A stretch of 64,000 nucleotides of DNA from Tilletiopsis washingtonensis. Lineage: Eukaryota; Basidiomycota; Exobasidiomycetes; Entylomatales. Under the pieces are notes generated by a model. That model was not told where the DNA came from and searched no databases. It saw only the letters and a list, made by a program, of their open reading frames with translations. Location: contig NW_020312019.1 of NCBI RefSeq assembly GCF_003144115.1, positions 231,780 to 295,779 of the forward strand, in the 5' to 3' direction. This document shows, one piece after another, positions 7,724 to 15,527 of this stretch (within the stretch, counting starts at the first letter, position 1; every line of letters starts with the position of its first letter). Position numbers and translations under genes: made by a program.

Positions 7724-8142
7724 TGCAATGTACCACCACCGCCACTCCTAATCATGACGCTCCATGACTTTGCCACCGAGAGGCCGCTGCATCACGATAA
7801 CTTAGCATGAGTCAAATTGTTCGTACTGACGAGGCGCGCAGAGGCACGATGGGGGAACGTGAGGCTCGCGGCAGTGAGGGTGATTAGCCTGCGCGGAGCG
7901 GCGAGAAGGCGGAAGAGGAGGACATGCAGAGGGGGCGTAGAGCGAGGAGGACGGTGCTGGTTCGGGCGCTGGATGGGAGTATGATGAACGAGCCGGCCGT
8001 GGAGAACGCAGGTGCCGGCGGCCGGCGCGAGAGCGTGCGTTTTGTGTGGGCGAGATGAGTGAGAGTGCGAGGTGACGATGTGGGAGATGGTCGTGAGGCG
8101 TAAAGGCCAGCAAGCGGGCCGTCGTGGCGTGTGCGGCGAAGT
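7724..8142. other. Convergent intergenic region
   Basis: This holds the 3' ends of COX11 and the NRPS-like gene. Open frames here are Arg/Ser/Pro-rich antisense shadows. No RNA gene or repeat was recognised. Confidence 0.5.
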
Positions 8143-11100
8143 CTAGTGTCCTGCGGAGCTGGCGTAGCCGTTGGGCGCGCCCTGGGCGCGTGGCCGCCGC
8201 GTGCGCAGCTGGCGCGCAGGCCAGCCGGCGTACACGGCGCCAGCCTCTGCGATCTCGCCACTGGCCACGAGCGTGTGCTCGAGGAGCATGGAGCGCGGCT
8301 CCATCGAGGCGCCGGAGAGCAGGCGCGAGCCCGTGCGCATGGCGCAGCCGTCGCCGATGCGCAGCCGGTTGAGGCTGAAGCGGCCACGCGAGTTGATGTG
8401 CGCCACCACCGAGCAGTCGTCGAGCGACACGTTGTCGCCCATCGTGACGAGCTCGGGCTCGGTGAGCTGCAGGCTCGGCTTGCCGCCCGCCCAGATGGCG
8501 CAGTTGCGCCCAATCGTCGCACCGAGAGCGCGCAGGTACCATACGACGAAGACGGTGCCGGAGAGGTTGCCCAGGATATGGCCGCCGAAGCCCTTGCCGA
8601 GGAGGCGCTGCAGCGTGAGGTGCAGCTGCCAGCGCTGGCAGTAGCTGCTCTTGTCCCAGTCGTAGCGGCCCTCGCGACGGCGGCCGATGATGGCCCACTT
8701 GGTGAGGATGACCCAGGCGAAGGCCAGAAGCATCTGCACGTTGAGCACGACGACGAAGCAGATGGCGATGAAAGCGTAGATCAGGCCCGGGCGGTACCAG
8801 TGGTCGCTGAAGAGCGCCGCGTCCGTGTACTCGAAGTGCGCGCGCGAGACGTTGAGCGAGACGACGGTGACGACGGCGGCACTGGCCCAGTAGCCCGACG
8901 AGAAGACGGCCATGAGCAGGTTGATGGCAACGAGCATGAGGTACGGGAAGACGAAGAACGAGGCCTTGCGCTTGTAGAAGGCGCGGCCGAACGGCGTGAT
9001 CGTCTCGTCATCGTCGCCGACGGAGATCTCGCTCTTCTCCTTGGCCGCGCGACCGAAGCTGACGGCCGAGCCGTTCTTGCTGCCCATCCACACGGTGTTC
9101 TCCTCGTAGAGGCCGTTGCGCACTGCGAGCGCGCCCGAGCCCATGACACACTGCTTGCCGATCGTCGTGCCGGGAAGGAGCACGACACGGTCCGCAATCA
9201 TCGCACCGCGGCCGACACGCACGCGCGCCCAGCCGATCGAGTCCGACGTGAAGAGCTCAGAGCGCGAGCCGAACACGACGTCGTCGCCGATCTCGAGCAG
9301 CTCCGGGTCCGGGCAGTACACGCCGCTGCCGGGCCAGTACACGCGCTTGCCGACCTTGGCGCCCATGGCACGGTAGATCACCGACGTCATCTCGTAGTGC
9401 GTGCCCAGGATCGACATGGCGCGACGGATGTTCGGCTGGCTGAGCAGCTGGCCGTTGATCCAGCGGCGGAAGAGCGCAAGCTGCGTGGCGTTGCGCACCG
9501 AGCCCTCGCGGTTGAGGCCGAGGCAGCGCTTGAGGATGATGCCGATGACGAGGTTGATGAGCGGCGGCATGATGTTGCGCATGATGCGCGCCACGTAGTG
9601 CCAGCCGATACGCGGCGGGTAGGCGAACCAGGCAATGACGCTCTTGACGCTGTCGCGGTGGTTGAACTCGAACGGCTGCGACAGGAGCATGAAGAGGGCG
9701 GCGAACCACGGCACGTAGCAGATGACCCGGATGAGCAGGATGAGCGGCGTGCCGACGAACCAGATCAGCGCCGGGTGCGGCGTCGGTGCGGCGTTGCGGT
9801 TGTACGCCGCGTAGGCGTCCGACGACGGCTCCTCGTGCGACGACGACTGCGGGCCCCACACCGTGCCGTCGGCAAGGCGCGCGCCAGGCGAGATCTGCGT
9901 GAACGTGTTGACGACGCAGTCGCGGCCGATGATGATAGGCTCAAGGCGGAAGTAGCCGTCGCGCTCGACACAGAAGCCGCGGAGGAGCGACTTGTCGATG
10001 CGCGCGCCGTCGTGGATCGTGATCAGGTCGTGCTCGGCAATCTTGGCCCAGCGGTCGATCTTGACGTCGTTGCCGATGGACATGCCGAGCAGGCGGAAGT
10101 ACGTCTGCTCGAGCCCGGGCGTGAGCGAGAAGAGACCCTTGCCGGCCGTCTTGAGCGACTGGTTGACGAGCCACCAGCGGAGGTGGTAGTTGCACCACAT
10201 CGGGTACTTGCCGGGGCGGTAGCGGCCGATGACGAGCCACTTGAAGGCGATGGCCGTGACGGGGCAGATGATGCGCGACGTGAAGCGCGCGACAACGATC
10301 GACGCCAGCAGCACACCCACGCGCTCCCAGAAGTCGTCGCGGATGTAGTAGGCAGAGAAGGCGAGACCGTGCAGGATGACCGTCCACGTCCACGCCGCCT
10401 TGAGCGGGTAGAAGAAGAGGATGGGAATGAGCTGCACGAACACGACCCAGGGATGCGTCTGGCTGCGCGGCCGGTAGCCGTGCGCGGCAATGGCCGGGTC
10501 GAGGTCGCCCGCCGCGTCGTCGTCGTAGCGGTGCGCGCTGGCAAAGGCGCCGCCGCCCGCGCCGCCCTTCTCGTCGTCGTAGTTGTCGGCGTAGTCGAAC
10601 TCGTCATCCACGATGCCCTGCTCGTCCTCGATGAGCATCGCGATGCCCTCGACGGTGGAGTTGTTGAACAGCGTCGACACCTCGAGCGTCGCGCCAGTCT
10701 CCTTGCGCACGAGAGCCACAAGGCGACCCAGCAGCAGACTGTTGCCGCCGAGCAGGAAGAAGTCGGACTCGGCAGTGATGGTGCCGCTCTCGGTGTCGAG
10801 CAGACGCGCAATGATGTCGCGCACCACCAGTGCCGTGCGCGACATGGCCGAGGCGTTCTGTGCGCGCACCTCCTCCTCCATCGTCTTGAAGTCGATGCGG
10901 CCGTTGACCTTGGCCAGCGGCTGCCTGAAGACGTGCAGCGGGTTGGGCACCACGTAGCCGTGCAGCACCTGCGCCAGGGCGCGGTCGATGTCGGCGGCGT
11001 CGTACTCTGCGTTCTCCTCCACCTGGATGAACGCCTCGGGGGCGCCGTCCTTGCGTTGCCGCACGGCCGCCTCGATGATGCCAGGGATGCGGTAGCACGC

Positions 11101-12999
11101 CCGCTCGACGGCGCGCACATCGACGGTGACGAGGTTGCACGGGATGGGCTCGGAAAGCGGCACCTCCTTGCCGGGCGCGCGCGCCTCGAAGTGGCGCTGC
11201 AGCGGCGGCACATCGTCCGACAGCGGTCCAATGCCCAGACGCGAGCCGAGCTTGATGCGCAGCGGCTTGCCGGCCTGGTTCTTGGGCAGGTCATCCATGT
11301 ACACGGCTGCAAACGGCCACTTGGACGGGTGCAGATGCGAGCGCAGCAGGTTCTGTAGCTCGGCGAGACCGATGCGCGGCTGGTTCGGCACGGGCACGAT
11401 CACGACGCCGATCGTCTCCTGCAGCACCGTGTGCTCGATCGAGAAGGCGAGCGTCTGCTTGACGCGGTCCTTGCACGCCTGCGTGATCGCCTCCTCTACC
11501 TCGAACGGCGAGACAACCTCGCCGCCCTTGTTGATGATCTCCTTCGAGCGACCCGTGATGTACAGGTAGCCGTCGGCATCCTTGTGGCCCATGTCGCCTG
11601 AGTCGAACCAGCCCTCGCTGGAGAATGCCGACGTGTCGAGCGCGTCGAACGGGTCCGGCGACGTCTCGTAGCCCGAGAACGTCGGCAGGCCGCGCACAGA
11701 CACGGCGCCAGTCTGTCCCACGGGCAGCTCGCGCTCACGGTCGAACGGATCGCGAATGGAGAGACCCGGGCCGCACGCGACACCGGAGCAGCCAGGCCGG
11801 TCGAGCTGGTAGTCGACCGGCGGCGAGGCGATCGGCATGCACTCAGTCATGCCGTACGATGGCAGCACGGCGGCGCCGCCAAACGTCTCCTTGAGCTGGA
11901 TGGCGAGCGACGGCAGCAGGCCACCGGCGGCGTTCGCGATCATGCGGATCTTCAGGTCGCGCGACGGCTGAACGCCCTCCGGACGCGACGCGAGGATGGC
12001 GTGGTGCATCGTCGGCGCGGAGTAGTACCTGCGAAGGAAAGTCAGCGCTGTACGTGGCCGACACTGCACCGCGGAACTCACCAGGTGGCGCCAAGCTGCT
12101 TGGCAAGCGTCCACCACATGTTCGCGTCGAAGCCGGCGCACATGATGGCGCTGCCGCCCGAGAAGAGCGGCGACCAGAGGTTGCGCACAATGCCGCCGAC
12201 GTGGAAGAGCGGCATCATGTTCATGTTGACGCTCTCGGGGCGCAGGTCCCAGCTCTGCACGACACAGCAGGTGCCCACGATGAGATGCCGAAGCGAGTAC
12301 GGCACGACCTTCTTCTTGCCGCTGGTGCCACTGGTGTGCAGCACGAGACTCTGGTGCTCGAGGCCGTGGAGCTGCGACGGCTGGCGCCCGGCGCGCGACA
12401 TGCTCGCCTCGCGCGCGAGCGTCGACATGTCGAACAGGCCCGCCGGGCCGACGCCGCGGTTCTCCACAAAGATGACCTCCATGCCCTCCTCCTCGTACAG
12501 CGCCTGCACCTCGAGACGGTCGGCGGCATCGCGCGTCGTGACAATGGCCTTGGCGCGCAGCCGCACCGCGTCGTCGCGGAGCTCGCCCGCCGTGCAGCTG
12601 GCGTTAATCGGTGCGCACGTGTGGTACGCAGCAACGGACATGAGCGCCAGCGCGTTCTCGGCGCCGGTCGGCAGAGCTGAGGGACATAATGAGCGGAACG
12701 CTCGTAACGCACCGCGGCCGGCGCGACTCACCCATCATGACGCGATCATTGGGGCCCAGCGGCTGGCGCGAGTACGGCAGCGAGAAGCCGGCGATGAAGC
12801 GCTTGATGTCGCGGTGCAGCAGCGGCTGCCGATTCAGATCCGGGCTCCACAGCGCCGGCGCGGGCGTGTTGCAGATGACATCGAGCAGCGTGCGGATGCG
12901 GCCATTGTCAGTGACGTGCCGCGCGATGTGGTCACCGAGCGAGACGCCGCGTTCCGGCGGCGGCAGGCCGTACAGGAACGAGAGCGGAAAGTCGGACAT
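8143..12999 (-). CDS. NRPS-like adenylation-carrier-membrane/hexapeptide synthetase (Pls-type architecture)
   Basis: A 1582-residue protein from three exons (12999-12732, 12676-12082, 12028-8143). The order is an AMP-forming adenylation domain (about 20-620), a phosphopantetheine carrier (about 685-755) and a very long C-terminal region (about 815-1560). Adenylation motifs seen: TSGTSGKKK near 203, SYGMTEC near 346, SGDMGHKDADGYLYITGRSK near 430-450, and the A10 lysine in KNQAGKPLRIKLG near 538. The carrier has the GGNS attachment site near 716. The C-terminal part alternates about six hydrophobic segments with three blocks of hexapeptide-like left-handed helix repeats, as in the terminal domain of bacterial epsilon-polylysine synthetase (Pls) and related NRPS-like proteins. 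The substrate cannot be read by eye; the adenylation domain looks closer to Pcs60/acyl-CoA-ligase types than to classical amino-acid NRPS domains. No condensation, reductase or thioesterase domain is present. The gene stands alone, with no cluster partners on either side. Confidence 0.85.
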
Positions 13000-15527
13000 G
13001 GCGCCGGCGGAGCACGAGCGTGCGAGATGCACAGGCTCGCTAGGTCAGGGCAGGAGTACGGGGCGGAGGGAGCTGGGAGGAGAGGGTGTGCGGTGGCGCG
13101 GCGGTGTCCAACAACACTGCTGAGGCGACACGGGCTAGCGACGCGCGAAAGACAGGAGGGTATGCCGGTGCGAGCACGAGAGCGTGAGCGACAGGCTCTG
13201 TGAAAGCGCTGAGCAAGGAGAGCGAGAGAAAGAGCGTCGAGCGCTCGCGGCGCAGGTGGCTCGCGAGGAGGCGGATGCGAGCGGGGCGGAGAAGGAGCGG
13301 GCGCGCGGCAGAGGCGGGCCTGGCGCTTGCTCGAGTAGCCAGCAGGGAGCGGGCTGAGAGCGAAGAGAGAGCGCGGCCTGAGGAGACGTCGAGGTGCGAG
13401 GCAGCACCGGCGAGGGAGAGGCGGATGGGTGAGGACGAGAGAGGGTCTGCTAGGACGCAAGGCAAGCGGAAGGGAAGGGCGCTGAGAGGCGCGCGCGGCG
13501 CCGCTGCTGCCGCGCGCGTGTTACCGCCGCGCGAGGCGCAGACGGCGCGCCTGCCGCGGCGGCGGCCTGGCGCGGCACGGCACGGCATCGGCATCAGCAG
13601 CGGGCGCAGGCCAAGAGGGGCTCGCAGGCACACGGCCAAGACTGACAAGGTGTAGAGCGTGCGGCGCGGGCGGTGCAGGCGCCGGCGCGCAGGCGGCGCG
13701 CCGCGCAGGGGTCGCGGCGGGCCTGCGGCGCCACGCCTGAGCCGAGAAATTTCGGCCCGAGGCACTCGCCCTGCAGGCCTTCTCCGTCGAAGCCGCCGCG
13801 GCTCGCCAACGGCAGCAGGCAGGCGGGCGAGTGCCGGCCCAGCGGCAGGCCGCCCCGTGCGTGCGTGCTGCAGCACCGCTGGACATCGCGCCGCCGGCGT
13901 GCAGCGCACAAACTGCGGCGCGCTGCTGTCGTGAGCGGCGCTCCTCCTCTCTGCTCGGGCTGTCAGCGGACGCAGGTTCCAGCAGTCGTCTGCCGATGCT
14001 GCAGCTGCGGCTGTCGCTACGCGCTATAGGAGTGCGGATGCTGCGATGGATGCCTCAGGTCGCAGCGAGGCGCACGCAGAGGAATCCCGCCGGAGGGAGC
14101 GCCGCAGCGCAGCCTCTCCCGCCGCGGCCGCGCCTGCACCCGTGCCGCCACAGCGCTCCTGCGCTGCGTGCCTTGTCCTCCCGTGCCCGCGCGCGACAGC
14201 CGAGGGCCAAACCGAAAGGCGCACAGGGGCTCAAGCTCCGCTCCCGAGAGCATCACTCTTGCGCCGACGCCGCCTCGACATGCGAGCTGTCGAACGCCAT
14301 CGCGCCGCGAAGGCGGCTGCAGCAGCGATCAGCGTTCCTGGAGGCCGCCGAGCCGTCGTCAGCTTCCGTCCTGCTCTGCGCCGCGCAGGTCGCCGGCGTG
14401 CCATGCGCAGAGTGCCATGCCATGGGCGGTGGAGGCCTGAGCTCGGCTGACGGCCAGCCAGTCGTCTCGCACCCGCTTTGTCGCAAGCCCTCCGTGAAGC
14501 TTCGCCTTGTCAGCGCGGAGTGCATGCTACACCAGCTCGACGTGAGAAGTGTGCTCTCCTGGGCGTTGACGAGCGAACAGGTACTAGCCAGAGGCTGGCG
14601 CGCGCTAGCTGCGCCCGTCGATCTTCGAAGGGCGGCGCTGGCTCTTGTCGGACGCAGCACAGCATCAAGCTCGATGGGAGAAGCTGGCTTCATCGCACGC
14701 AGCACGTACGATGTGGCGGCGTTGCGCGAAGGTTGCTCAACGGGTGCTGCCCAGGCCACCGCCTCCGCGTCGTTGACGGCACGCATGAGACGCTGCCACC
14801 CGCCTCGTCCAGCATAGTCGCCGAGGCGTGTCCTCGCCCGTCGGAGCCCGGATGACGACGGGCAGCAGCTCCGTCTGGCCCTCTGCTACGGCCAATACTC
14901 GGCAGCCTAGGTGGCCTGCAAGCAGCCGTTGCCTCCGCTCCAAGCGCAGGGTGCAGCGCTCGTCACGTCCTTGTTGATGCGCGCCGCGTCGCGCAGGAGA
15001 CCTCAGCTCTCAGAAATGCTTGTCTTATTGCCGCATGAGGGGAAGAGAGGCTCCCATTTTGGGCTCAAAATCCGAGTAATTATGTCAGCTACCTGGAACA
15101 GTGTGCATCATCGCAACGAGCTGCAGATGCTCTGCCACGAGTCTCTGTTCTGCGCGGGGCGCGCTGTGTCTGCAGCTTTCGTTCATCGCCCAACAGGGCC
15201 AGCGCTGACGTGATGGCGCTTTCTCATCTAGCCTCCGAATACGTTGCGCAGTCCGTCTGCTAGCAAAGAGGTCCATCAGTCCACCACAGACACCAGGCCC
15301 GAGAGCATCAGCCCAGCTGACTTTGTCACCGCAAGCGGCCGGCAGCCCGCGCGCGCTCGGCCGCTCCGAAGCCGTTGGCCGCTGCCAATGCGCCCGATTC
15401 CGGCGCCGAGCCACGCCAGAAGCCCTCCGAGATGCATCCGGTACCGCTGCTCAGCGTGCAGAGTCAATCGCCTCGGCATCGGAGCTGAATGCGCTATAGA
15501 TTATGCAAGCAGCTGTCTAGACGGTGC
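13000..15527. other. 2.5-kb gene-free region upstream of the NRPS-like gene
   Basis: All frames give Arg/Ala/Cys-rich, non-conserved translations with no splice-joinable family match on either strand. The segment from about 15000 to 15130 is clearly richer in A and T than its surroundings. I looked for tRNA B-box-like sequence, spliceosomal RNA 5' ends and Sm sites and saw none. It probably contains the promoter and leader of the minus-strand NRPS-like gene and the 3' end of the importin gene. Confidence 0.5.

Follow-up and report, generated by a model that had tools for sequence, protein, structure and literature searches.

What does a stand-alone fungal enzyme make when it has the layout of a polylysine synthetase but an adenylation (A) domain of another kind? 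The question is raised by a gene in a 64,000-nucleotide stretch of Tilletiopsis washingtonensis contig NW_020312019.1 (the window), which encodes a protein of 1582 amino acids (aa) and runs from start to stop codon over 8143..12999 of the minus strand (ATG at 12999, stop codon ending at 8143); all features of this gene given below lie on that strand. The initial annotation had described a single protein joining an A domain, a carrier with the motif GGNS and a C-terminus of membrane segments and hexapeptide blocks, and this architecture was confirmed, with exact coordinates. Besides the architecture, we directly observed homology of the C-terminus to the terminal domain of the Pls/PosA family, an A domain outside the nonribosomal peptide synthetase (NRPS) type, a dead-looking second A-subdomain and changes at individual residues. 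The initial annotation had not mentioned the second A-subdomain, a canonical Pls paralogue on another contig, the TIGR02353 score below its cut-off or the published polymalate synthetase of similar described layout. We favour, tentatively and with somewhat less than even confidence, a single-protein Pls-type membrane polymer synthetase whose front was swapped for an acyl-coenzyme A (CoA)-ligase-type domain and whose product is of the polymalate type.

Homology to the Pls/PosA family was clearest in the terminal domain (approximately aa 812–1566, 8194..10458), which comprises six membrane segments and three beta-helix-like blocks. NCBIfam TIGR02353 (Pls/PosA terminal domain) matched it with an E value of 3.2e-57 in three stretches, and its 194.4 bits lie below the curated cut-off of 423.1 for Pls/PosA membership. 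We regard the C-terminus as a divergent homologue of the Pls/PosA terminal domain over its full length. In the predicted structure, the beta-helix-like blocks were located between pairs of membrane helices. The first block (approximately aa 933–1012, 9856..10095) and the second (approximately aa 1175–1274, 9070..9369) were recognised by strand pattern alone in this model, which is partly of low confidence, and the second also overlaps a Pfam Hexapep match (2.9e-12; residues 974–1004 of the translated open frame, equivalent to aa 1224–1254 of the protein). The third block (approximately aa 1455–1566, 8194..8529) was closest to maltose and galactoside O-acetyltransferases, and the left-handed beta-helix fold characteristic of hexapeptide O-acyltransferases was found. 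The initial annotation had made its comparison with polylysine synthetases depend on Pls-type similarity of the C-terminus and on three beta-helix blocks alternating with the six membrane segments, and both were borne out.

The Pls/PosA family (epsilon-poly-L-lysine synthetases, delta-poly-L-ornithine synthetases and Epls of Epichloe) shares with the window protein the carrier, six membrane segments arranged in pairs and three beta-helix blocks, whereas the front of the window protein combines a domain of acyl-CoA-ligase type with a second A-subdomain. Among fungi, Epichloe is known to have an epsilon-polylysine synthetase, and homologues occur in a small number of Ascomycota, according to the available text of PMC7179176. 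Our literature searches found no paper on an NRPS-like/oxalyl-CoA/LpxA protein in fungi and none on Ustilaginomycotina with polylysine.

Gene structure analysis showed that the parts belong to one gene. Exon 1 (12732..12999) encodes aa 1–89 and the first base of codon 90; exon 2 (12082..12676) encodes the A-domain core with TSGTSG (aa 204–209) and PLFHVGG (PF00501, 3.8e-16); and exon 3 (8143..12028) encodes the remaining A domain, the second A-subdomain, the carrier and the membrane/beta-helix part. Both introns (55 and 53 bp) have GT-AG borders. Upstream of the ATG the frame opens at 13032 with GTG and contains no earlier ATG. Pfam matches to AMP-binding, AMP-binding_C, PP-binding and Hexapep were obtained in the protein. 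Exon 3 is a single open frame that begins midway through the A domain, runs to the C-terminus and crosses the junction between the two parts; their joining is therefore real, and a gene-model artefact fusing two genes was rejected.

The statement that the adenylation part is nearer to acyl-CoA ligases of the Pcs60 type held up, as its three best PDB matches were all oxalyl-CoA synthetases (6qjz, 2e-52; 5ie0, 6e-48; 8aff, 7e-43), followed by the malonyl-CoA synthetase 4fuq (2e-35) as the next solved relative. We accordingly place the A domain, as far as sequence comparison can assign it, in the Pcs60/oxalyl-CoA synthetase type and not in the NRPS type. Within its own genome, the closest non-self match to the A domain reached 33% identity over 129 aa, with no close paralogue. 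For comparison with bacteria we used the best 80 of at least 575 confirmed relatives, retrieved by a scan with an alignment of three bacterial members, a sample that is biased towards canonical Pls. The front of the window protein gave no phmmer match at E 1 or better to any of these 80 proteins.

Comparison of the substrate pocket revealed replacements at positions that define amino acid recognition in the family. In PosA, Asp217 binds the alpha-amine and Glu221 the side-chain amine, and mutants of either are described in the accessible part of PMC10522769 as lacking detectable activity. Both residues were present in all 72 bacterial Pls proteins with a readable A3 motif (the remaining 8 of the 80, of which several are truncated, were not counted). 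In sequence alignments of the window protein, the alpha-amino-binding Asp is replaced by His248 (12201..12203), and Arg254 (12183..12185) aligns with the side-chain-amine-binding Glu, at a position that is Ala or Gly in oxalyl-CoA synthetases and Val in malonyl-CoA synthetase. Among the oxalate-contact residues of AAE3, which we take to be His214, Ser289 and His319, the PDB alignment showed one of three to be kept: the histidine is retained as His248, while Ser289 is replaced by Ala and His319 by Pro. With two of the three contacts replaced, oxalyl-CoA synthetase function was rejected. Together, His248, Arg254 and the replaced oxalate contacts suggest that the A domain should not activate alpha-amino acids and is probably no oxalate enzyme; its substrate may be a larger, negatively charged acid. 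Oxalyl-CoA synthetase (Pcs60/AAE3) thus remains the closest solved relative and shares the His of FHVxG, but it has no counterpart of Arg254 and is a stand-alone enzyme, whereas the A domain of the window protein is fused to a carrier and membrane parts. Malonyl-CoA synthetase (MatB), likewise a dicarboxylate ligase, differs in also standing alone and in its Val.

These residues also bear on two readings in which the product is a polyamide. The characterised proteins with such a terminal domain make isopeptide polymers, as described in the accessible parts of PMC10522769 and PMC7179176, and the loss of the alpha-amine-binding Asp would be compatible with a Pls-type synthetase for an omega-amino acid or another amine-bearing acid without an alpha-amino group; Arg254, aligned with the amine-binding Glu, should repel an amine, and we consider this reading unlikely. 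Simple divergence of a canonical epsilon-polylysine or polyornithine synthetase would account for the similar overall layout and the homologous terminal domain, but is highly improbable: the A domain matches none of the 80 bacterial Pls proteins and is nearest to CoA synthetases, the signature Asp and Glu are both lost, and a canonical Pls is encoded separately in the genome. An ordinary polylysine synthetase was rejected on the type of the A domain and the absence of these two residues.

The separate Pls is a second TIGR02353 gene on another contig (C23) of the same genome, and its spliced protein of 1387 aa scored 528.8 bits, above the cut-off of 423.1, serving as a positive control. It has Asp, Met, Glu, Thr and Ser, the five substrate residues of PosA. 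It is encoded on the minus strand within C23:2500-12400, with exons at 7054-6490, 6438-6355, 6297-4625, 4571-4016 and 3954-3070 and a further one from 3010, exon borders being picked by eye. Score and residues identify it as a canonical Pls/PosA member and make it a candidate fungal polyornithine-type synthetase; the window gene is therefore not the ordinary Pls of this genome. Approximately 16 kb from this paralogue, at C23:25601-26815, there is another long AMP-binding frame, open over 1634 aa, which is possibly a further NRPS-like gene on the contig.

To the C-terminal side of the A domain, the protein carries what looks like a remnant of a different adenylation module. The first A-subdomain (approximately aa 441–553, 11233..11571; PF13193, 3.8e-5, and PDB alignments) contains K542 in QAGKPLR, which we take to be its catalytic lysine. 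The A domain and the carrier are separated by a second A-subdomain of NRPS/Pls type (approximately aa 591–680, 10852..11121), in which R665 replaces the lysine; it is apparently catalytically dead and is presumed to be the scar of a domain exchange. The carrier (thiolation) domain (approximately aa 691–770, 10582..10821; PF00550) has GGNS with S718 and stands directly ahead of the terminal domain, as in the Pls/PosA family; the genome contains three matches to the phosphopantetheinyl-transferase family. When polar or charged positions near-invariant in bacterial Pls were compared (the same residue in at least 40 of 42 bacterial sequences), the second A-subdomain kept 4 of 15 and the carrier 3 of 8.

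In a tree built from the carrier and terminal parts, the window protein and the paralogue were separated in 200 of 200 bootstrap trees. The branch of the window protein measured 7.62, whereas the median end branch was 0.49; branches are too long for this split to be trusted, and the well-supported branches are compatible with one origin. A Pls from Phyllobacterium (L018:1452-5459), itself on a very long branch (4.28), adjoins the window protein in the tree; either a divergent subfamily of its own or long-branch attraction may explain this position. Genes for GNAT acetyltransferases adjoin the bacterial Pls genes in two loci, L018 and L017, the latter also having a phosphopantetheinyl transferase gene; these acetyltransferases could act on the product, modifying or neutralising it.

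The very long carrier/terminal branch and the dead-looking second A-subdomain would also be expected of a decaying or non-functional fusion gene. Against decay stand 4.7 kb of open coding sequence, clean introns and an intact A-domain core, K542 and GGNS, and we judge it quite improbable; that exon 3 scores strongly for codon usage is uninformative on this point, the scoring having been trained on this gene.

Bacterial and archaeal genomes scanned with the carrier and terminal part alone yielded 12 pattern matches and no relative, and matches were obtained in 10 of 10 genomes searched individually (best, 77 bits). Among plasmid records, a longer query matched 1976 with none covering 80% of the query; the terminal part alone matched 51, 29 of them over 80% of the query, with identities of 21–33% in the 40 matches listed. 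Phage records gave three weak matches.

The choice of a hydroxy acid as substrate rests on three considerations. Malate is preferred because oxalyl- and malonyl-CoA synthetases are the closest relatives of the A domain, because an arginine aligns with the Pls glutamate, and because the polymalate (PMA/PMLA) synthetase of Aureobasidium melanogenum has been described with a similar layout. For strain ATCC 62921 (QHD40385.1), a transmembrane protein with A-like, T and C-like domains is described in the accessible text of PMC11905612, and that of PMC9210645 describes a 5049-bp NRPS-like gene whose product has six membrane segments and lacks a thioesterase; removal of the gene left growth unaffected. 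Expression is linked there to calcium and Crz1 (PMC9210645, PMC11905612). The window protein broadly fits this description of a single A-like/T/C-like protein with six membrane segments, and the lengths are similar (approximately 1682 aa there and 1582 aa here), a likeness of described layout and size taken from secondary papers, one of which places the membrane part elsewhere. Among the matches listed in our literature search, polymalate papers concern Aureobasidium or are reviews.

From these features we infer substrate, ester bond, polymerisation and export for the favoured membrane polymer synthetase. The front would adenylate a carboxylic acid, probably a hydroxy-dicarboxylic one such as L-malate, and the acyl group would be loaded onto the phosphopantetheine arm of S718. 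Within the membrane, the C-terminal domain would then join the acyl group to the hydroxyl of the growing chain, His1498 (8398..8400) being the likely base, and the polyester would be passed to the other side. A further proposal, that fungal polyester synthesis arose when the A domain of a Pls was replaced by a dicarboxylate CoA ligase, leaving the old A-subdomain as a scar and turning the membrane polymerase from amine to hydroxyl, is possible but doubtful.

Several points weigh against a polymalate-type polymerase. The placement of Arg254 in the pocket comes from aligning sequences with a gap of two residues, fixed by the Trp that follows, and because two of the three oxalate-contact residues are replaced, the pocket appears unlike that of any known dicarboxylate ligase. 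In the terminal domain, 25 of the 58 polar or charged positions near-invariant in bacteria are kept. The third-block motif (Q/T)(T/S)H(L/I)(F/Y)ED, our own summary of the bacterial loci, was found in 80 of 80 of them, a count that is partly by construction as one of the two scan patterns resembled the motif; in the window protein the His alone is present, with His1498 the sole survivor of bacterial QTHLFEDRVMK in the motif comparison. Because of these losses, polymerase activity could be altered or lost. In the polymalate synthetase the membrane segments are placed N-terminally, unlike those of the window protein, and restoring the deleted gene recovered only one third of the product, as far as described in the available text of PMC9210645.

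The principal rival is an acyltransferase in which the beta-helix moves a single carrier-loaded acyl group to a membrane-facing acceptor such as a glycolipid, a sterol, a cell-wall sugar or an amine. This would fit the similarity of the third block to maltose and galactoside O-acetyltransferases, the loss of most of the bacterial third-block signature with one His kept, and the resemblance of the A domain to CoA ligases that form no polymer. Maltose and galactoside O-acetyltransferases are soluble, CoA-dependent enzymes; they share with the third block the left-handed beta-helix and a His in the corresponding loop. In a profile alignment to E. coli LacA, H1498 fell in the same loop on His119, four residues from His115, which we take to be the catalytic histidine of the acetyltransferase. 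Because of this offset, His1498 is a candidate catalytic base only. The blocks of bacterial Pls share the fold by prediction (PMC10522769, accessible part), and the acetyltransferase match does not discriminate between the two activities. All three blocks and all six membrane segments are kept, which is more than a single transfer should need. We regard single transfer as possible, with a likelihood below that of the polymer synthetase.

The genomic neighbourhood was surveyed for partner genes, which the initial annotation had said were absent. The window contains 59 coding-like stretches, three of which are this gene, and 10 of the other 56 were scanned (1.9–26.7 kb, with 13–19 kb hardly covered). 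Eight of the ten had Pfam matches and two had none. Three stretches matched SNF2, helicase and RING, and the others COX11, importin, a WD40 protein, class II tRNA synthetase and 2-oxoacid dehydrogenase E2; these eight look like housekeeping genes, which is consistent with a self-sufficient enzyme. For the eight named stretches this agrees with an absence of partners, and within a coverage of 10 of 56 a biosynthetic cluster is not supported. Antisense to the gene, a 1075-aa open frame (8131-11358, plus strand) most likely arises from GC-rich codon use alone.

The enzyme responsible for linking malate units was sought for more than two decades and is described in the accessible text of PMC9210645 as not yet fully characterised. 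If the proposed replacement of the A domain took place, T. washingtonensis would pair a polymalate-type synthetase with a retained canonical polyamide synthetase in one genome, and the gene would supply a mechanism for the poorly understood polymalate polymerase. If the window protein is of this kind, polymalate and polylysine synthesis would share a membrane polymerase, with one module exchange having changed the substrate class. This would be a natural retargeting of a homopolymer synthetase from polyamides to polyesters, and the paired genes within one genome would make such retargeting directly testable.

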